In this document: positions 1,723 to 15,360 of the stretch, piece after piece | How positions within the stretch are numbered: position 1 is the first letter of the stretch | Layout: each line of letters starts with the position of its first letter | Source of the DNA: Magnetovibrio sp. | Lineage (GTDB): Bacteria > Pseudomonadota > Alphaproteobacteria > Rhodospirillales > Magnetovibrionaceae | DNA: 15,360 nt | Direction of reading: 5' to 3' | NCBI GenBank assembly: GCA_016763255.1 | Contig: JAESUA010000148.1 | Span: forward strand, 1 to 15,360 | Translations under genes and position numbers: made by a program | The notes under the pieces: model-generated | Database searches by the model: none | The model's input: the letters and a program-made list of their open reading frames with translations, nothing else | Told to the model about the DNA's origin: nothing

Positions 1723-3344
1723 ATGCCCACAACTCCACTTTCGTCGGCCTCGATGTTGAACGCCGCCCTCATCAGTGCTTGGGTATAGGGCTGGCGCGGA
1801 TTGTCAAAAATCATGTCCGCCGGGCCTTGTTCGACGACCCGGCCTTTTTGCATCACCATCACGTCATGGGCCAGGGCGCGTACGACTTTCAAATCATGGC
1901 TGATGAACAGGTAGGTGAGGTCGTGTTTCTTTTGCAGATCGCGCAACAGCTCGACAATTTGTGCCTGCACCGAAACATCCAGCGCGCTGGTCGGCTCATC
2001 CAAGATGATCAGTTGAGGTGTAAGCACCAGGGCGCGGGCGATGGAAATGCGCTGGCGTTGGCCACCGGAAAATTCGTGGGGATAGCGGTCCATCATGTCG
2101 GCATCTAAGCCGACTTCGGCCAATACGTCGCTGACCCGTTCACGGCGCTCTCCATCTGTGTTGGCGAGGCCGTGGACCTCCAAACCTTCACCGATGATTT
2201 GCGCCACCGACATGCGTGGGCTTAAAGAGCCAAATGGATCTTGGAAAACGATCTGCATTTCTTTGCGCAATGGCCGCACGGCGGAAGCCTTGAGACCTTC
2301 GATCGAACGCTGCTTAAAGGTGATCGATCCGGTCGAACGTTCGAGGCGCAACAGGGCGCGCGCCAGGGTCGATTTTCCCGATCCGCTTTCACCGACAATG
2401 CCCAGGGTGTGGCCTTTTTTCACCACCAGATCGACCCCGTCGACGGCTTTAACGTGATCAACGGTGCGCCGGATGAAACCTTTCTTAATGGGGAACCAGA
2501 CCTTCAATTCTTTTGCACTCATGATCGCCGGGGCGTCAGGCGTGCCCGGCTCGGGCCGGCCTTTGGGTTCGGAGGCCAGCAGGCGTTGGGTATAGTGGTG
2601 CTGCGGATTGGCGAAGATTTCCTGGGTCTCACCTTCTTCGACCAGCAGCCCGCCTTGCATCACATAGGCGCGATCAGCGATGCGCCGCACGATGCCCAGA
2701 TCGTGGGTGATGAACAAAATGCCCAAGCCCATTTTTTCTTGTAAGTCGGCGAGCAGTTTCAACAATTGCGCCTGGATGGTGACGTCCACCGCGGTGGTCG
2801 GTTCATCGGCGATCAAAAGGTCGGGTTCATTGGCCAGGGCCATGGCGATCATCACGCGCTGCTGCTGGCCGCCGGAAAATTCATGGGGCAAGTTTTTCAG
2901 CCGTGAGATCTGTCCTTCCAGGCCCACCAGATGCATCAGTTCTTCGACCCGTTGCCGCACGTCGGATTTGCTGACGGCGTGATGGATGGTGATGATTTCG
3001 GCGATTTGTTGACCGATGCAGTGCAGCGGGTTGAGGCTGTTGAGCGGTTCTTGAAAAACCATCGAAATATCTTGACCGCGCAAAGAGCGCATCACCGTTT
3101 CGGGCGCGCCCATCAATTCTTCGCCCTTAAATTTGACCGATCCCGATGGGTGTTTGGCCAATGGATAGGGCAGCAGTTGCATGATCGAAAGGGCGCTCAC
3201 CGATTTGCCCGAACCACTTTCGCCGACCAACGCTACGGTTTCGCCCTTGTCGACATAAAATGATACCCCGCGCACCGCTTTGACGGCGCGTTCGCCTTCG
3301 CCGAAGGTGACTGAGAGGTCTTTAACATCAAGTAGGCGGCTCAT
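1719..3344 (-). CDS. yejF: Peptide ABC transporter, fused double ATP-binding subunit YejF
   Basis: 541 residues holding two complete ABC ATPase domains in tandem, as in YejF (E. coli about 529 residues), which powers uptake of oligopeptides and microcin C. Domain 1 has Walker A GESGSGKS at 41-48, Q-loop Gln98, signature SGGQQQR at 157-163, Walker B LLIADE at 176-181 and switch His214. Domain 2 has Walker A GESGSGKS at 318-325, Q-loop Gln368, signature SGGQRQR at 426-432, Walker B LIILDE at 445-450 and His483. Both sites look competent. A linker of about 60 residues with the OppD/DppD-type ending ([11 protein letters not shown]) separates them. The ATG overlaps the TGA of yejE by four bases and the stop overlaps the ghrA start in the same way. 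Cytoplasmic, bound to YejB and YejE. Confidence 0.95.
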
Positions 3345-4408
3345 GAGCGAAACACCTTGCGCGGATCAAACGCATCGCGCACCGCTTCGCCGATGAATAC
3401 CAGCAAGGTCAGCATAATCGAAATCACCAAAAACGAAGTCAGCCCCAGCCATGGAGCGTGCAGGTTGGCTTTGCCCTGGTTGAGCATTTCACCCAGTGAC
3501 GCAGAACCCGGCGGCAATCCAAAACCGAGGAAATCCAAACCGGTTAACACGGTGATGGAGCCGGACATGATGAACGGTAAAAAAGTGATGGTCGCCACCG
3601 TGGCATTGGGCAGAATGTGGCGAAACATGATCTTGGCGTTGGACACGCCCAGGGCCCGGGCGGCGCGCACATAATCAAAATTTCTAGTTTTCAAAAATTC
3701 TGCGCGTACAACACCGACCAAGGCGGTCCAACTGAACAACAACATCAAACCTAACAACCACCAAAAATTGGGTTCGATGATCGAGGCCATGATGATCAAC
3801 AAAAACAGCATCGGCAACCCGGCCCAAATTTCGATGGCGCGCTGAAACAACAAATCGGTGAGGCCGCCGAAATATCCCTGCACCGCGCCCGCTGCGACGC
3901 CGATGATGGAACTGACGATGGTTAGTATCAAACCAAACAAAACCGAGATGCGAAAGCCGTAGATCAAGCGTGCCACCACGTCGCGGCCTTGATCGTCGGT
4001 GCCGAGATAATTGAGCGTATCGGGCGGGCTGGGTGCCGGTTGGGAGAGAGCGTAGTTTAAGGTGTCGTAGGAAAAACGCACCGGCGGCCAGATGATCCAG
4101 CCTTTCTCTTCGATCATTTCTTGGACTTCAGGATCGGCGTATTCGGTCGGCGTTTCCAAAAATCCACCGAAGGTGGTTTCTGGGTAATCGACAAAAATCG
4201 GGCTGTACAGCTGGCCCTCATAGCTCATCAAGATGGGCCGGTCGTTGGCGATGCCTTCTGCAAACATGCTGGTGACAAACAGAAATAGAAAAATCCACAA
4301 GGACCAATAGCCGCGTCGATTGGCTTTGAAATTGTCGATGCGCCGACGGTTGATGGGCGAGATTGACAGGCCGCAAAATTGTTCTGTTGAAGAAGAAGCC
4401 ATGCTCAA
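3341..4408 (-). CDS. yejE: Peptide ABC transporter permease YejE
   Basis: 355 residues, an inner-membrane permease of the DppC/OppC type. The N-terminal cytoplasmic segment carries the YejE-typical RRGYWSLWIF entry into the first membrane helix (about 35-50), followed by a periplasmic domain of roughly 85 residues. The DppC-family signature LGTDDQGRDV (135-144) precedes the five-helix core. The EAA loop that docks on the ATPase is visible in FDYVRAARALGVS and the following IMFRHILPNA (about 244-269). The ending GEAVRDAFDPR matches E. coli YejE closely from memory. It pairs with YejB to form the pore. The start ATG overlaps the yejB stop (ATGA) and the stop overlaps the yejF start, implying one transcript and coupled translation. 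A second ATG two codons downstream is a less likely start. Confidence 0.95.
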   Translation of the reverse strand: MSMASSSTEQFCGLSISPINRRRIDNFKANRRGYWSLWIFLFLFVTSMFAEGIANDRPILMSYEGQLYSPIFVDYPETTFGGFLETPTEYADPEVQEMIEEKGWIIWPPVRFSYDTLNYALSQPAPSPPDTLNYLGTDDQGRDVVARLIYGFRISVLFGLILTIVSSIIGVAAGAVQGYFGGLTDLLFQRAIEIWAGLPMLFLLIIMASIIEPNFWWLLGLMLLFSWTALVGVVRAEFLKTRNFDYVRAARALGVSNAKIMFRHILPNATVATITFLPFIMSGSITVLTGLDFLGFGLPPGSASLGEMLNQGKANLHAPWLGLTSFLVISIMLTLLVFIGEAVRDAFDPRKVFRS

Positions 4409-5520
4409 TGCTCCACCTTCTCAAAATCGATCCGTGGATCGATGATGTGATACATCACATCGCCGATGATGCCCATGATCAGACCCAACAGGGTGAAGAA
4501 AAACATCGATGCAAACATCACCGGATAGTCGCGTTTGATGACCGCCTCAAAGCCCAGCAGACCTAGGCCATCGATGGAAAAAATCACCTCGATCAATAAT
4601 GATCCGGTGAACAAGATACCGATGAAAGCGCTGGGGAAACCGGCGACCACAATCAACATGGCGTTGCGAAATACATGTTTGTACATCACCCGGCGTTCAC
4701 TTAAGCCCTTGGCCCGCGCGGTCATGACGTATTGTTTGTTGATTTCTTCGAGATACGAATTTTTGGTCAGCATGGCGAGACTGGCGAAACCGCCGATCAC
4801 CAACGCCCCCACCGGCAACACCATGTGCCATAAATAATCGGTCAGCTTGCCCCAGCTCGTTAGATCGGCCCAATTGTCTGAGGTCAGGCCGCGCAATGGG
4901 AACCAATCAAGATAACGCCCGCCGGCAAATACGATGATCAAGATGATGGCGAATAAAAAGCTTGGGATGGCATTGCCGACAATCACCACCGACGAGGTCA
5001 CAATGTCAAAACGTGAACCATCTTTAAGCGCCTTCATAATGCCCAAGGGGATGGAGATGATGTAGACCAAGATGGTGGTCCACAGGCCCAGTGAAATCGA
5101 CACCGGCATCTTGTCGAGCACCAGATCGATCACCGCGCGGTCGCGAAAATAACTGTCGCCGAAATCGAACACCATATAGTTTTTCATCATCATCCAAAAA
5201 CGTTCATGGGCGGGCTTGTCAAAACCGTACATTTTTTCGATTTGGGCGATGAATTCCGGGTCCAGTCCTTGGGCGCCACGGTATTTGCTTTGCTGGCCAT
5301 TGCCCGTTTGCAATGCAGTCTTGCCGCCACCGACAGCCGTCTCACCTTGGCCGGACCCTGCGATGCGCGCCGTGGCGCTGACGTCGAGACCTTGAACCTT
5401 GGCGATCATCTGCTCGACCGGTCCACCGGGGGCGGCCTGGATGATGGCAAAGTTGATCACCATGATCCCGAACAATGTCGGGACGATCAACAAAAGGCGA
5501 CGAAAGATGTATGCAAGCAT
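4405..5520 (-). CDS. yejB: Peptide ABC transporter permease YejB
   Basis: 371 residues, an inner-membrane permease of the DppB/OppB type. It opens with the family helix MLAYIFRRLLLIVPTLFGI and the APGGP motif (about 30-34). The YejB-specific periplasmic insertion lies at about 44-90, rich in Gly and Gln and ending in YRGAQGLDPE, which matches E. coli YejB from memory and separates it from plain DppB. The EAA loop reads YVMTARAKGLSERR followed by YKHVFRNA (about 264-287). It ends in DPRIDFE, as in the E. coli protein. The gene starts 8 bases after the yejA stop without a clear Shine-Dalgarno sequence, so re-initiation after yejA is likely. That matters because yejA contains a premature stop. 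Confidence 0.95.
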   Translation of the reverse strand: MLAYIFRRLLLIVPTLFGIMVINFAIIQAAPGGPVEQMIAKVQGLDVSATARIAGSGQGETAVGGGKTALQTGNGQQSKYRGAQGLDPEFIAQIEKMYGFDKPAHERFWMMMKNYMVFDFGDSYFRDRAVIDLVLDKMPVSISLGLWTTILVYIISIPLGIMKALKDGSRFDIVTSSVVIVGNAIPSFLFAIILIIVFAGGRYLDWFPLRGLTSDNWADLTSWGKLTDYLWHMVLPVGALVIGGFASLAMLTKNSYLEEINKQYVMTARAKGLSERRVMYKHVFRNAMLIVVAGFPSAFIGILFTGSLLIEVIFSIDGLGLLGFEAVIKRDYPVMFASMFFFTLLGLIMGIIGDVMYHIIDPRIDFEKVEH

Positions 5521-5528
5521 GGTGGGCG

Positions 5529-7370
5529 TTAATTTCCGTTTCGGGCCGCGTCTAGTTTTGCGGCCTTGGTTTCGTCATACCACCAGGTGCCGATCTGGCT
5601 GCCTTGCATCGGCACGATGGCTGGACGCGAAAATTTGTTCCAATAAACCAGGCGGTCGTAGGGAATGTGCCAGTGGGCAATGACGTAATGGCCCTGCACC
5701 AGGACGCGATCCAAGGCGCGTACCCGGGTGATCAGGTCTTCGCGGGTGGGCGCTGCGATCACTTGGGCGATCAGCTCATCGACCACCGCATCCTTGATGC
5801 CGATGACGTTGCGGCTGCCCGGGGTATCGGCGGCGTCGCTGCCCCAAAACCCCTGCTGCTCGTTGCCCGGCGACATGGACTGGCCCCAGCTTGATACGAT
5901 CATGTCAAAATCGAAACTGCGCATGCGCTCGATATATTGGGCGGCGTCGATGGTGCGCACCTTCATTTTAATGCCCAGGCGTTCCAAGGATTTGCCAAAC
6001 GGCAACACCACGCGTTCAAACGTTGGCTGGACTAGGATGATTTCAAAATTAAGCTTTTGGCCGGTGGTTTTGTTGACGCGGTCTTTGCCTTCGATCACCC
6101 AACCGGCTTCTTTGAGCAGCCGATCGGCAATTTTGAGATTGCTGCGAATGCGGCCGTCGCCTTTGGTGGCGGGGGGATTGTATGGGGCTGTGAACACATC
6201 GTCCGGAACGCGTCCGCGATAGGGCTCAAGGATTTTCAATTCAGCCGCATCGGGCAGCCCGGTGGCGGCCAATTCGGAGTTGTCGAAAAAGCTGCGTGAA
6301 CGGGTGTATTGACCATAAAACAGATTTTTGTTGGTCCACTCAAAATCAAACGCATAACTTAGGGCTTCGCGCACCCGATGGTCTTTGAAGATGTCACGGC
6401 GGGTGTTGAAGACGAAAGCCTGCATGCCTTGGGGGCGTTCGTGAGCGAGGGTTTCTTTGACCAATTGACCGTCTTTGACGGCGTCGATGTCATAGGCTGT
6501 GGCCCAGGTCTTGGAGATGTTTTCGAGACGAAAATCGACCGCCCCGCCTTTTTAGGCTTCGACCTGAATTTGGCCATCACGAAAATATTCATAGCGCATT
6601 TTGCCAAAATTATTATGCCCAACGTTGGCCGGCAGATCACGGCCCCAATAGTCTGCGATGCGCTCATAGGTGATCGAGCGCCCAGTCTCAAACTTGCCGA
6701 TTTTATAGGGCCCCGATCCCAGCGGTGGTTCCAAGGTGGTCTTGGAAAAATCGCGGCTTTGCCAGTAATGCTTGGGCAAAATGGCCAACTGCCCGAGAAT
6801 GAGGGGCAATTCACGATTTTCAGTGGTGGAAAATGTGAATTTCACGGATCGTTCGGATAGTACTTCAACCTTGGCCACGTCGGCGTAATAGAATTTATAC
6901 TGTGGTGCGCCTTTGTCGATCAGGGTTTCATAGGTCCATTTGACATCCGCGGCGGTGATCGGCATTCCGTCGTGCCATTTGGCTTCGGCTCGCAGGTTGA
7001 AGATCACCCAGGAGCGGTCTTCGGGCACCTCGATGCTTTGCGCCAGCACGCCGTATTGGGTAAACGCTTCGTCGGCAGACGAGGTCGTCAAGGTGTCGTA
7101 GATGTTGCCGATGCCATCGACCGTTTCGCCCTTGGAAATGAAGCCGTTGAAACTGTCGAAACTGCCAAAACTGGCAAAGCGGATGGTCCCGCCCTTGGGT
7201 GCATCCGGATTGACGTACTCAAAATATTTGAAATCCGCACCGTATTTGGGGCTTCCGTGCATGGCGATGGCGTGGGTTGGCTGCACCTCTTGCGCCATGG
7301 TGTTGAGGGGCACAAGTGCCGCGTACAGCACCGCAGAGACAGCGAACAAAGCAGATTTCAGGTTGGCCAT
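5529..7370 (-). pseudogene. yejA: Periplasmic peptide-binding protein YejA, interrupted by one in-frame TAA
   Basis: Read through, the frame spans 613 codons, the normal length for YejA (E. coli about 604). It is a family 5 extracellular solute-binding protein that delivers peptides to YejBEF. The signal peptide covers about residues 1-26 (MANLKSALFA... cut after TMA). The binding-protein core includes PDAPKGGTIRF, VIFNLRAEAKWHDG and LGSGPYKIG. Codon 273 (bases 6552-6554) is TAA, between QIQVEA and KGGAVDFRLEN. Homologues usually carry an aromatic here (EAFK). The frame is unchanged on both sides and the 340 codons after it look normal, including ERPQGMQAFVFNTRRDIF and VREALSYAFD. No indel is involved. 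This is a recent nonsense mutation, a base-call or assembly error, or a readthrough site. A GGGGAG ribosome binding site lies 5 bases before the ATG. Confidence 0.88.
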
Positions 7371-11079: not shown

Positions 11080-11928
11080 ATGAGCGCACAAAACACCATC
11101 GCTTTTCAAAGTGAAGCTGGGGCCAATTCCGACATGGCGTGCCGCGCCGTGTACCCGGATATGAAGACGCTCGGCTGTTATACGTTTGAACACGCGTTTG
11201 CCGCCCTGCACGATGGCAAAGCCAGCTTGGCGATGATCCCCATCGACAATTCGGTCGCCGGACGGGTCGCCGACATTCACCATCTGTTGCCGGGCTCCAA
11301 CCTGCACATCATCGGTGAACATTTTCAGCGTATCGACCATCATCTGCTGGCCCTCAAAGGCACCAAGATCGAAGATTTGACCCACGTGCACAGCCATGTG
11401 CACGCGCTCAACCAGTGCCGCGGCATCATCCGTGATCTGGGCCTGGACCCGGTGGTGCACGCCGATACAGCCGGTGCGGCGCACATGATCAGCGAACAAA
11501 ATGATCCCAGCCAAGGCGCGATTGCGTCGCAATTGGCCGGTGAAATTTATGGCTTGGAAGATCTGCGCGCCAATATCGAGGACGCCGAACACAACACCAC
11601 GCGGTTTTTGATCATGGCCAAAGACCCGCTGGTGCCAACCGCCAACGACGCCAAAGTCATGACCAGTTTTGTGTTCCGCGTGCAATCCATTCCCGCCGCA
11701 CTTTACAAAGCCCTGGGCGGTTTCGCCACCAACGGCGTCAACATGACCAAGCTGGAAAGTTACATCATCGACGGCAGTTTTGAGGCCGCGCAGTTCTACG
11801 CCGAAGTCGAAGGCCACCCAGAAGACCAAGCCATGCAACTGGCGTTCAAAGAACTCGATTTTTTCACCCACGAAATCAAGGTTATGGGGACGTATCCAGC
11901 TGCAGCGTTTCGCGATGAGGTGGGTTAG
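11080..11928 (+). CDS. pheA: Prephenate dehydratase (monofunctional, with ACT domain)
   Basis: 282 residues. It converts prephenate to phenylpyruvate in phenylalanine synthesis, in the cytoplasm. The catalytic domain (about 5-180) shows IAFQSEAGANSD at the start, IPIDNSVAGRVADIHHLL (53-70) and the key Thr-Arg-Phe motif in HNTTRFLIM (TRF 174-176). The C-terminal ACT domain (about 193-272) includes SIPAALYKALGGFATNGVNM and TKLESY, where Phe feedback binding is expected. The usual ESRP motif is ESYI here, as in other alphaproteobacterial enzymes from memory. There is no chorismate mutase domain, unlike the enterobacterial P-protein. It follows kdsB closely. Its TAG overlaps the TAA of the convergent NTPase gene by a few bases. 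Confidence 0.94.
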   Translation: MSAQNTIAFQSEAGANSDMACRAVYPDMKTLGCYTFEHAFAALHDGKASLAMIPIDNSVAGRVADIHHLLPGSNLHIIGEHFQRIDHHLLALKGTKIEDLTHVHSHVHALNQCRGIIRDLGLDPVVHADTAGAAHMISEQNDPSQGAIASQLAGEIYGLEDLRANIEDAEHNTTRFLIMAKDPLVPTANDAKVMTSFVFRVQSIPAALYKALGGFATNGVNMTKLESYIIDGSFEAAQFYAEVEGHPEDQAMQLAFKELDFFTHEIKVMGTYPAAAFRDEVG

Positions 11929-14066
11929 GAGTCGGAGCTGTCCTCGTTCCGAGCTTGGTAATCTCGTGCGAGCAATTCCTGGGCCTTCGGAGCTGCTGTA
12001 AGTACTATCTGTGAATAAAAATGTGCAGGAAAACGTCTAGCAATATTAACAGCTTCATACAGAAGCAATTGAGCCTCTGTATGCCGACCATTAATGGCTA
12101 TATCTGAAATCATAAGAAGGGTAACTGCCGCTTTTGGAGCTTGAAATCCCTCTATATCGGGGTGCTTGTCGGCCAGTATACTGAGCTCATCAAAAAGTGT
12201 TTGAGCTAAATCCGGCTGACTTGTGTCATGTAAAGCACCAAATTCTCTCGGGGCGGCGAAGGCAGCATTAAGTTGAATTACCATGTGCCCGTCATTTTGA
12301 AAGGCATTGCAGAGAGCCAGGGTGTGCTCATGTAGCAAACCTCCTTCGCCTGCGTAGCTAAGGTGGTCTGACATTTGACCGATAGTGAATAAACTGGCAG
12401 CGATAACTTCAGGGGTATCCCCGGGGCTGTCTAGGGGCATGGACAGAGTTTTCATAGTTTTATGATTGGGGAAATCCCGTGCGCATCGCACAAGAAATTC
12501 GTTCATGCCTGTGGGGGCGCTATGCCACGCTATCCCGCGTATTAAGTTATGGCGTTCTCTTGATGGATGCTTTATGGCGAGATTTGTATTGTAATAGAGT
12601 ACTTCAAGTACAAACAGTTCTCCTAAAATGTCAGGCTCTAATGGGAAAAAGATTTTACCATCAATATGTCCAGTTATGGTCCCTTGGCGGTCAAAAGTTG
12701 TATTTTTGTTAAGAGCAGGAAATAGATTTGTATCCTTTAATACGCCCAAGGCTTCAATCGGGGTTCCTGCAGTCATAGTAGCGAGTGCTAGCAGGTTTTC
12801 GTCCTGCTCGGTGACGTCTTTGGGCCAGAAATTTTCCTGATCGCGCTGTAAAATTTCGCGCGCTAAGTCGGTGGTGCTCCATTCAAGAACGTTGTCGTTT
12901 GCGGTGAGGGCTTCGCCCAGGAACGCGGCGTAGAGGGCGCGGCTTTCTTTGTCGATGGTGCTCAGTTTTTCCAGGCATTCTTCCCGACGTGTTTCATCCA
13001 GGGTGGCGTTCATGCCTTGCATGATGGTCCACAGCTCATCCGGGCCGGGATCGGCTAATTCGATTGGCTTTTGCCTATGGCAGGTATCTTCGAGGCTGAT
13101 TTGATCCGTGCGGCCTGGGCCCCAAAATTGTTTGGCCCATTCATCGTCTGACTGCATGTCGCGTTCCAACAGCAAAAAACGCACCGGGAATTCGTAATTC
13201 TGGGCGTTGGCGGCGGCGTGGCGGATGGCTTGGCCGACCGCTTCGCCTCTGCGTGCGACATAATCGACCACGATCAGGGTCGGCTGGTCGGGCCGCCAGT
13301 CTTCCCAGTGGTCATATGTGGTGTTGGCGCTCAAAAACCCGGCGCGCCATGCGCCGCCCACCTGCAGGCAAAATTCCAGCGCCAAACGGCTTTTGCCCTG
13401 GCCGCCCGATCCGGTGATCAGGTGCCACGACACCATCGGTGCGGCATTGATAAAGGCGTCGAGCTGGGCGATTTCGTCGCGGCGGCCTTGGAACTCGACA
13501 TAACGGGTGCCGTAGACAAAACGCCGCTGTTTGCGCTTTTGCGTGATGATATCCAGGCGCAGCGGTGGCTGCGGGTTGAGCAGTTTTTCGATTCCCACCT
13601 TGATGTCATCAAGATCATGGAGAATCTCGGCATGCCGTTTGAGGTCGGATGAGAGAAAATCCAGGTGTTCGGCTTCGTTGCGGCGTAACGTGCCTTTACG
13701 GATGGCGGCTAGTTCTTGCTCGGCGCGTTGGGCCAGATCGGCTGTCGCCAAAACCTGTTCCAGGGCGCTCATGACATTGGCGTAACCGGGCGTCAATTTA
13801 AGGATTTTGGTTAAGCGTTGCTGGCTGACCTTACCAAGCCAAGCCATTGATTTTCCGCTAGCCTTTGCCACCAGCGGAGCCGCACGTTTAAGCACGAAGC
13901 GCACCAGCCGGGGGTTGAGCTCATCGAACTCTTCGCATATCTGGCGCACCAAAATGGCCTGAAATTCCGCGTCGTTGAGGAATTTCCCCAGGCCTTTTGC
14001 CACGCCATGCTGTGCGATGGCATCGATGGTTTGGTCTAGATCAATGGCTTTCGTGTTGTCGGGCAT
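11925..14066 (-). CDS. STAND-like P-loop NTPase of unknown function with AT-rich C-terminal half
   Basis: 713 residues. An all-helical N-terminal region (about 1-180) without a recognisable enzyme motif leads to FVYGTRYVEFQGRRDEIAQL, the lead-in typical of STAND/AAA-like NTPases. Walker A GSGGQGKS is at 219-226, Walker B LIVVDY at 264-269, and a sensor-like Arg in FPVRFLLLERD at 293-303. After an arm region (about 335-410) the C-terminal half is helical, possibly TPR-like near 610-700. ATG 14066 was chosen; the frame continues to a TTG seven codons upstream. Base composition is mosaic: a 60-base block at 13201 is 73 percent GC, blocks at 12001, 12541 and 12661 are 33, 35 and 40 percent, and the last block (11931-11990) is 60 percent. 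STAND proteins sense a ligand and oligomerise, and some defend against phages; the role here is unproven. Confidence 0.82.
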   Translation of the reverse strand: MPDNTKAIDLDQTIDAIAQHGVAKGLGKFLNDAEFQAILVRQICEEFDELNPRLVRFVLKRAAPLVAKASGKSMAWLGKVSQQRLTKILKLTPGYANVMSALEQVLATADLAQRAEQELAAIRKGTLRRNEAEHLDFLSSDLKRHAEILHDLDDIKVGIEKLLNPQPPLRLDIITQKRKQRRFVYGTRYVEFQGRRDEIAQLDAFINAAPMVSWHLITGSGGQGKSRLALEFCLQVGGAWRAGFLSANTTYDHWEDWRPDQPTLIVVDYVARRGEAVGQAIRHAAANAQNYEFPVRFLLLERDMQSDDEWAKQFWGPGRTDQISLEDTCHRQKPIELADPGPDELWTIMQGMNATLDETRREECLEKLSTIDKESRALYAAFLGEALTANDNVLEWSTTDLAREILQRDQENFWPKDVTEQDENLLALATMTAGTPIEALGVLKDTNLFPALNKNTTFDRQGTITGHIDGKIFFPLEPDILGELFVLEVLYYNTNLAIKHPSRERHNLIRGIAWHSAPTGMNEFLVRCARDFPNHKTMKTLSMPLDSPGDTPEVIAASLFTIGQMSDHLSYAGEGGLLHEHTLALCNAFQNDGHMVIQLNAAFAAPREFGALHDTSQPDLAQTLFDELSILADKHPDIEGFQAPKAAVTLLMISDIAINGRHTEAQLLLYEAVNIARRFPAHFYSQIVLTAAPKAQELLARDYQARNEDSSDS
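11995..12850. other. AT-rich block inside the NTPase gene
   Basis: Hand counts of 60-base blocks give 20/60 GC at 12001, 24/60 at 12061, 21/60 at 12541 and 24/60 at 12661. Blocks at 12781 and 12841 are near 32/60, the block at 12901 is 42/60, and 11931-11990 is 36/60. The reading frame is open throughout and corresponds to about residues 405-690. No flanking repeats, transposase or integrase was seen, so replacement by homologous recombination is more likely than an insertion element. Confidence 0.6.
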
Positions 14067-14151
14067 AGGGCGAGCGCCGCTTATCAATAAAAATGTATGG
14101 TGGCGTATTCGTCGGAACTGTCAAGGTTGTGGCCTTTGCCTCTTGCCAAAC

Positions 14152-14460
14152 ATGGGGCAAAAGCCTTATCTCCTAGATGAGACCGGGCCGAGTGGTGCCG
14201 GTTACACCGCATTTGAAAAGGAAACACGGACCGTGCTTAAGCGTGATGGTGATAAATTATCGTTTCAAGGTATGGATCCGTCCAAGGACCCGGCGAAGAT
14301 ATTACGCGTTACGGGCTTAAATACGCTGGATGATGCGACGTTGTTGGGCGCGCTGTTGGATATCAAAGCGCACATGCGTCAAGACGGTGTGATGGAAGAC
14401 ATGCACAGCAAAGGCCGCGAAGCGTTGCGCCTTTTGGCCGAACGCAAGGCCAAAGGCTAA
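14152..14460 (+). CDS. Small protein of unknown function (102 residues)
   Basis: Not recognised. It is a soluble, strongly charged protein (Lys, Asp, Glu, Arg rich) without signal peptide or membrane helix. Visible segments are a Gly/Pro-containing start (DETGPSGAGYTAFEKETRTV), a short basic stretch LKRDGDKLSF, and a C-terminal half that looks helical (DDATLLGALLDIKAHMRQDG and the run ALRLLAERKAKG). The ATG at 14152 was chosen; the same frame is open upstream into the start of the NTPase gene on the other strand, but that part is probably not coding. No clear ribosome binding site is seen. GC content matches the host background. It is divergent from the NTPase gene with 85 bases between the two starts, so the two may share a promoter region. 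Confidence 0.6.
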   Translation: MGQKPYLLDETGPSGAGYTAFEKETRTVLKRDGDKLSFQGMDPSKDPAKILRVTGLNTLDDATLLGALLDIKAHMRQDGVMEDMHSKGREALRLLAERKAKG

Positions 14461-14550
14461 GCCGCTTAGTCCCCCCCAGCCCCACAGCTCCTCCCCGGCA
14501 TACTTTGTGCAAAATTCTCATTTTTTTAAATAAAATCAGGGTTTTGGGAC

Positions 14551-14632: not shown

Positions 14633-15172
14633 ATGATGTTGAAGACCGTACGCACCCTATCTGCCAAACGCATCACCGCGCTATCGGTGCTGGCTGTTGC
14701 CCTGGGCGTTTCGGGCTGCACCATGACCTCATCGGCACCGACCGCATTCATGCAAGATTGCCTGTCAGATCGTCTCGACATCGTTGAAAATGCCACCTGG
14801 GACGGTGTCCAGCCGCGCCGAATTCGCATCATCGATGGCAACTATCGTCCCATGGTGATGTATTTTGAAAAAGACCGCCCCTACATTCTCACGGTGGAAA
14901 ATGTCGATGCCAGTGCCCACGATCTTTGGGCACCGGGCCTGTTGAAGCAGGGCGTGGCGCTGCACAGCGTGCAAATCGGCGATAAGGCTCCGGCCAAGGG
15001 CTGCGTCAACGGTGTGCGCATCGCGCCACGCTCGCAAGTGACGCTGAAGTTTGTGCCGGTGTATGAAGGCCGTTACGAATTTTACGATGGTGGTTTCCCG
15101 CTGCTGGCGGGCAACATGGCGGATGGGGTTTTCCATGTGGTGGCCCCGCGCGCAGGCGTAGCCTCTAAATAG
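14633..15172 (+). CDS. Putative lipoprotein with a degenerate cupredoxin-like domain
   Basis: 179 residues. A signal peptide with a lipobox (ALGVSGC, lipid Cys29) indicates a lipoprotein exported to the cell envelope. The mature part has the rhythm of a cupredoxin beta-sandwich: RPYILTVENVDASAHDLWAP (82-101), SQVTLKFVPVYEGRYEFY (134-151), then DGGFPLLAGNMADGVFHVV (152-170). In copper-binding members the YEFY segment is followed by Cys, then His and Met. Here the Cys position is Asp152 and the expected His is absent, while Met162 and His96 remain. A blue-copper site is therefore unlikely. Two other cysteines (43 and 124) could form a disulfide. ATG 14633 and ATG 14636 are adjacent and either may be used. 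No strong ribosome binding site is seen. The fold assignment is from pattern only. Confidence 0.7.
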   Translation: MMLKTVRTLSAKRITALSVLAVALGVSGCTMTSSAPTAFMQDCLSDRLDIVENATWDGVQPRRIRIIDGNYRPMVMYFEKDRPYILTVENVDASAHDLWAPGLLKQGVALHSVQIGDKAPAKGCVNGVRIAPRSQVTLKFVPVYEGRYEFYDGGFPLLAGNMADGVFHVVAPRAGVASK

Positions 15173-15278: not shown

Positions 15279-15360
15279 GGGAGATCGGCGCGGGCGAAGT
15301 CCTCGCGAACCCGGTCAGGTCCGGAAGGAAGCAGCCGCAACGAGTTTTGCTTCGGGTCGC
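15279..15360 (+). ncRNA. ffs: Signal recognition particle 4.5S RNA, 3' end beyond the window
   Basis: The SRP RNA core AGGTCCGGAAGGAAGCAGC (15317-15335) is identical to the Ffh-binding domain IV of E. coli 4.5S RNA as I recall it, including the GGAA tetraloop and the asymmetric internal loop that binds the Ffh M domain. The stem continues outward: GCGGG.CGAAG with CTCG on the 5' side (about 15290-15307) pairs with CGAG and CTTCGGGTCGC on the 3' side (15341-15360). The RNA acts with Ffh and FtsY in co-translational targeting of membrane proteins. The 5' end is inferred from the promoter and is uncertain by several bases. The 3' end is cut off. In many alphaproteobacteria dnaX lies downstream, which the window cannot show. 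Confidence 0.93.

Follow-up and report, generated by a model that had tools for sequence, protein, structure and literature searches.

A putative STAND receptor gene of Magnetovibrio with a sensor cassette of foreign composition, and replacement of the corresponding cassette in related genes

The stretch of Magnetovibrio DNA analysed here (15,360 nucleotides of contig JAESUA010000148.1, in the following "the window") carries, next to the prephenate dehydratase gene pheA, a gene for a nucleoside triphosphatase (NTPase) that very probably acts as a receptor of the signal transduction ATPases with numerous domains (STAND). It resembles switch proteins by which animals, plants and bacteria detect invaders. 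Within this gene the GC content at third codon positions (GC3) has been found to drop abruptly at a conserved motif, and the part downstream of the equivalent position or of a later seam has been replaced in members of two other genera. To the explanation as a whole, a single-gene STAND receptor similar to nucleotide-binding leucine-rich-repeat receptors (NLR) and Apaf-1, with an exchangeable sensor cassette, we assign a probability of roughly 0.7. A preliminary description made from the DNA letters had proposed an exchange of the ligand-sensing module; replacement is indeed the likely cause of the break, as it has been seen at the same junction in one pair of relatives and further downstream in a second genus, whereas the attribute "recent" is unproven.

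The GC3 amounts to 0.672 for codons 1-424 and to 0.393 from codon 425 on. The best single change-point, codon 425, reaches a log-likelihood ratio (LLR) of 27.6 and coincides with the conserved LLALATM motif, while the maximum is 6.2 in 300 codon shuffles and 11.9 in control open reading frames (ORFs), 0/99 of which attain the score of the window gene; the 99 controls, each 400 codons or longer, stem from 14 genomes of the same class, in which 20 regions of 20 kb were picked at random. Measured against codon use in 12 further genes of the window (14153-14461 left out), the amino-acid-corrected z is +0.5 for residues 1-424, -8.3 for 425-545 and -7.9 for 546-713, the 12 genes, themselves the reference, ranging from -1.5 to +2.3. 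The sharp fall reported previously is therefore real, but its extent, given as about 70 percent to 33-40 percent, had been overstated: the GC content declines from 0.53-0.65 to 0.41-0.50 in 300-bp windows and from 0.53-0.63 to 0.37-0.52 in 60-codon windows. The recovery at the 3' end, and with it a retained tail of the gene, could not be reproduced, as GC3 is still low over codons 650-713 (0.34), the rise lies in the neighbouring pheA, and the foreign part extends to the stop codon.

Replacement of this part has been observed directly in relatives. Genome G443, of the same class but not of the same order, has a homologue whose break falls at the identical alignment position (codon 477 of 984), and its genus mate G685 carries a gene at the same locus with both flanks on one contig. 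The DNA of the two is 93.0% identical over 8.6 kb downstream and 90.6% identical over 3.6 kb including the first half of the gene; in 150-bp steps, identity is 86-95% upstream, 78-94% in the first half of the gene and 46-62% in the remainder, then 73% at the far edge and 91-98% downstream. The fall is not a single step, with 20-codon blocks at 88, 72 and 67% before the LLALATM motif and at 52 and 40% after it. GC3 is alike in both genes before LLALAT (0.79 in G443, 0.82 in G685) and differs afterwards (0.47 and 0.78, respectively). Since a GC3 difference of 0.3 in one half of a gene is hardly to be expected from substitution while the other half stays about 88% identical, only the stretch from about LLALATM to just past the stop has been replaced in this pair, and it is G443 that holds the AT-rich DNA. 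In the second genus (g33), a relative of the window gene is present in 5/29 genomes, and the downstream flank is common to all five (78-90%). Here the match between G214 and G181 is 88.5% as far as codon 628 in G214, ceases to be detected there and resumes at 90.2% 19 nt after the stop; only the 3' sensor part has been replaced, with a seam further downstream, close to where the winged-helix-like region ends. A third allele, in G196, has both flanks in common with that of G214, but within the gene the two share no more than about 1 kb of the core (83%), and their N-terminal blocks are 34-67% identical. A replacement of the N-terminal part is possible in G196, and a match of 1.47 kb to G181 at 74% identifies this part as that of a diverged relative.

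Some further observations concern these relatives. The sensor of the G196 allele (G196:C1:3609000-3620000) continues partly in another frame and may belong to a broken or decayed allele. Directly upstream of the swapped gene in G443 and G685, an ORF of about 650 aa has been found on the same strand (L168 11835-13811 (-), L169 11127-13055 (-)), the L168 copy of which has no Pfam match and could be a partner or a mere neighbour. In locus L175 (G067:C56), two family members, at 1-823 and 2396-4429, lie close to each other and agree at 77% in a stretch of 211 residues ahead of the junction; local duplication could supply cassettes. In L030, L032 and L125, where the start sites are uncertain, GC3 breaks strongly ahead of the NTPase core, which hints at N-terminal exchange too. 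The proteins P0004 and P0005, 97% identical in 421-480 and 37% in 541-600, have been considered as a swap near residue 540 and are not used as proof because P0005 lies on a 2.5-kb contig.

Breaks of this type are enriched in the family. From 94 non-redundant genes, 52 have been dropped before counting (33 with a core score < 80, 16 with a truncated 3' end and 3 because they were short), leaving 42 that are testable from core start to stop. An LLR > 12 is reached by 8/42 family genes and 0/99 controls (p 3.7e-5; 7/41 and p 1.3e-4 without the window gene), and an LLR > 8 by 16/42 and 3/99, respectively (p 1.7e-7). All 16 breaks fall at window-equivalent position 423 or beyond, in a scan that could place none in the first 100 core codons, and as the controls were random genes, part of the excess may be common to transferred or repeat-bearing genes at large. 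An initial control, the neighbouring ORFs of all loci, exceeded an LLR of 18 in 45/185 cases, compared with 12/100 family ORFs, which taken at face value speaks against a special behaviour of the family; many of these ORFs stem from GC-rich actinobacteria, the high scores have been blamed on upstream-extended or antisense ORFs, an artefact that is unproven, and the set has been replaced by the 20 random regions. G047 and G063 provide a counter-example with 82-100% identity per 40-residue block throughout, the fall in genus g98 (L194/L085) is only moderate, from 87% to 67%, and among eight genes profiled a clear break has been seen in the window gene and L113 only. On balance, we consider it almost certain that cassettes are exchanged in the family.

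For the window gene itself, the history has been followed by comparing it as a protein with the full-length homologues P0002-P0005. The preliminary description had named a single phylogeny for both halves as an argument against recent exchange, and this comparison, run in part, gives a divided answer: residues 1-424 group with P0002 (99/98), residues 425-713 weakly with P0003-P0005 (91/87). In an identity bootstrap, the extra closeness to P0002 is lost in residues 425-545 (difference 0.115, 95% interval 0.037-0.191). A grouping with P0002 is, however, not rejected for residues 425-713 either (approximately unbiased test, p-AU 0.138), and the extra closeness is kept in 546-713 (-0.001). The half-gene trees are thus suggestive and not decisive, and as trees and bootstrap fall short of proof, the exchange in the window gene rests on its composition and the shared seam, on which we regard it as probable in the ancestry of this gene. 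The cassette would have been acquired as in the other genera and presumably by the same kind of recombination, and its donor, if the exchange happened, would be a relative of the same subfamily.

A somewhat less than even chance is given to the alternative that no exchange took place in this lineage, and that the gene was received complete, its second half being AT-rich already in the donor, and has been inherited intact since. The gene is absent in the sister genomes examined and thus arrived as a unit, and the window sensor is nearest to that of P0002 in identity (0.41 vs 0.31). The share of glycine, alanine, arginine and proline (GARP) in P0002 is low in residues 501-560 (0.42) and 641-713 (0.44), but not low over the full range 411-713 (0.53). 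In codon use, however, the first half of the window gene equals the host and the second does not, which uniform amelioration cannot bring about, and an exchange somewhere is needed whether it is old or new. An assembly chimera of two strain alleles, conceivable in a metagenome bin of 425 contigs and 67% completeness, is very improbable, as the frame is open and homologous across the seam, both ends of the gene abut synteny common to the sister genomes, and the same seam occurs in G443, for which a completeness of 100% and a contamination of 1% are listed.

The assignment as a STAND protein is well founded. The single open frame of 713 aa (11925-14066 (-), from the ATG at 14066), the P-loop motifs GSGGQGKS (219-226) and LIVVDY (264-269), the helical N- and C-terminal parts and the STAND-like character, all named in the preliminary description, have been recovered, the helical parts in a predicted structure and the STAND character from the Walker motifs and the predicted layout. 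Across 10 aligned sequences, G219, G221, G222, G224, K225 and S226 of Walker A and L264, V266, D268 and Y269 of Walker B are invariant, and both motifs lie within the P-loop core. The full-length model (predicted local distance difference test score, pLDDT, 86.4; predicted template modelling score, pTM, 0.83) has the tripartite STAND layout of N-terminal domain, NTPase with helical and winged-helix part, and C-terminal sensor repeats. Only two Foldseek rows lie at E <= 0.001, 6mfv, a STAND protein with tetratricopeptide repeats (TPR), and the NLR RPP1; the structural alignment of the model with Apaf-1 spans 116-547. Residues 425-545 are called winged-helix-like because we take them to be so from their position and by analogy to STAND proteins. 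The sensor is modelled as helix pairs over 552-708 with a block pLDDT of 91-98 for 551-700, and a profile from 44 aligned relatives matches TPR structures. Closest among Pfam families is nSTAND_NTPase5 (PF25199; residues 203-307, E 5e-6, 26.8 bits, or 27.6 bits by genome search), whose curated cut-off of 34 bits is not reached, although precomputed annotation lists PF25199.2 for the window product (P0001) and the family likewise for P0002-P0005.

The N-terminal domain occupies a slot that varies between relatives. The window protein and 8 homologues have been combined into a profile of residues 1-180, which matches 47/123 homologues (E 0.01), one of them being the window's own product. In 9/10 relatives, chosen mostly for their annotation, the N-terminal domain is instead trypsin, Cap4, SIR2, DUF4062, SEFIR/TIR, esterase or Mrr, and none of these nine is among the 47 matches, which fits an output slot. 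For the window domain, seven helices are predicted, and a structure search with the predicted domain has given no convincing fold match in the PDB. In the tenth relative, P0040, the window-type domain stands behind about 200 further residues, which fits an adaptor, and the domain might therefore recruit a partner. According to excerpts of PMC13236601, the N-terminal domain of Caulobacter LypB, of a CARD-NLR system, binds a CARD-protease partner, and LypB has a similar layout with an N-terminal domain to 193, an AAA+ ATPase at about 193-392 and TPR-like repeats; its Walker A-B spacing, taken from the same excerpts, is 105, compared with 43 in the window protein. Furthermore, the STAND gene has pheA, the conserved small gene and the gene at 14633-15172 as its neighbours; no CARD-trypsin-like protease is found next to it, and no protease domain has been recognised in the 10 window genes scanned or among 10 genes near relatives.

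A role in defence is somewhat favoured on account of the patchy presence of the family (27/297 genomes of the order, its own included), the defence-type domains that relatives carry at the N-terminus and the replacement of sensors. The surroundings speak against it: the preliminary description had suggested looking for defence genes near homologues, and no enrichment has been obtained in the sampled neighbourhoods, where 77 neighbour genes (from 286 called in 22 loci) match 8 PADLOC families and 77 random genes (from 289) match 6 (E 1e-8). In addition, the Pfam families of the neighbours are mostly housekeeping-like (best 25 of 109), and no PADLOC family in the library of 2023 matches the window protein at E up to 1. 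The missing island context and PADLOC match would suit a STAND-type regulator such as MalT, or a stress switch. We consider this unlikely in view of the three features that favour defence and of the four Pfam matches in the window protein, none of which is a DNA-binding domain.

In the favoured explanation, the receptor would have come into this lineage as a single gene beside pheA. Its helical-repeat C-terminus would keep the NTPase closed in the resting state, and binding of an invader-derived ligand would free it for nucleotide exchange and oligomerisation, upon which the N-terminal helical domain may act itself or recruit an effector. The part from LLALATM to the stop, winged-helix-like region and sensor together, would serve as a cassette open to exchange. 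Recombination at two points, within the conserved core and shortly after the stop, would replace it and thereby change ligand specificity, while switch and output stay. More tentatively, one may picture an immune receptor at a fixed locus that trades the unit reaching from a conserved seam in the core, either LLALATM or the point where the winged-helix-like region ends, to slightly beyond the stop, and its N-terminal domain separately over longer times, with the 180-residue domain as an undescribed output domain.

Related systems differ in defined ways. Avs5 and other AVAST STAND NTPases are represented by the SIR2-STAND protein EfAvs5 (PDB 9jap), whereas the window protein lacks SIR2 and a PADLOC model match. 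In type I restriction, target-recognition domains of HsdS are shuffled by recombination at conserved seams, a comparable exchange of a specificity module, but in a DNA-recognition subunit and not in an NTPase receptor. STAND proteins diversified by diversity-generating retroelements also vary their C-terminal sensors, by retroelement-targeted hypermutation as described in excerpts of PMC10907252, and not by replacement of a whole cassette as here. A search of open-licence PubMed Central papers, by titles, the beginnings of abstracts and some excerpts, has found no account of allelic sensor-cassette replacement in this STAND family. The modularity of STAND proteins is already established; it is rarer for an exchange to be visible as a replacement between alleles, with the flanks intact and a seam that can be mapped. 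Should the seam prove general, the alleles at one locus could serve to count the sensor types of NLR-like receptors in bacteria, and it becomes measurable whether such receptors keep up with phages by point changes or by module replacement; if the more tentative picture holds, bacteria re-aim one receptor without rebuilding it. With its unmatched N-terminal domain and single-gene organisation, the window gene is a convenient member for testing.

The STAND gene has not been found in 5/5 other genomes of the genus or in 12/12 others of the family (E 0.001), and the distance from pheA to the gene matching 14633-15172 is 503-626 bases in the five genus genomes, 2,707 in the window, and 180, 471, 621 and 1,279 in four other family genomes. 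In the sister loci L095, L096 and L097, oriented like the window, the empty site has been read directly, with the conserved small gene and its same start soon after pheA; the other loci have been judged by the flanking-gene distance. As the flanking genes lie close together and the STAND gene is absent, the site is empty in five sister genomes, and one gene has been inserted next to pheA. No exact direct repeats of at least 7 bases occur between 11881-11960 and 14041-14260, no integrase is found among the window genes scanned, and a scan for promoters and terminators does no better than on shuffles. Plasmid matches are limited to four records covering 17-22% of the query, and no phage record matches it.

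Table 1. Coordinates in the window of the STAND gene, its parts and the flanking genes.
Feature	Position	Strand	Remark
STAND NTPase gene	11925..14066	-	713 aa; insert between pheA and conserved small gene
N-terminal helical domain, residues 1-180	13527..14066	-	same place as effector domains of relatives
P-loop NTPase core and lid, residues 181-424	12795..13526	-	codon use host-like
Walker A GSGGQGKS, residues 219-226	13389..13412	-	invariant positions in 10 aligned sequences
Walker B LIVVDY, residues 264-269	13260..13277	-	invariant positions in 10 aligned sequences
LLALATM junction motif, residues 425-431 (seam)	12774..12794	-	GC3 drops from codon 425 on
AT-rich cassette, residues 425-713 and stop	11925..12794	-	winged-helix-like region and repeat sensor
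Winged-helix-like region, residues 425-545	12432..12794	-	predicted helices; conserved PLEPDILGELFVLE
Helical-repeat (TPR-like) sensor, residues 546-713	11928..12431	-	predicted helix pairs; profile match to TPR structures
pheA (prephenate dehydratase), native flank	11080..11928	+	stop overlaps STAND stop
Small conserved gene, native flank on other side	14233..14460	+	start set by comparison with sister loci
Native flanking gene for empty-site comparison	14633..15172	+	present in 10/10 genomes searched

Elsewhere in the window, a gene for a family-5 solute-binding protein of an ABC transporter (5529-7370 (-)) is apparently split into 6552-7370 and 5529-6464 by a frameshift or an assembly error, and only the piece at 5529-6464 has been matched to Pfam SBP_bac_5. 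A bacterial small signal recognition particle (SRP) RNA (RF00169, 52.5 bits) is located at 15279-15360 (+) and runs off the end of the window.
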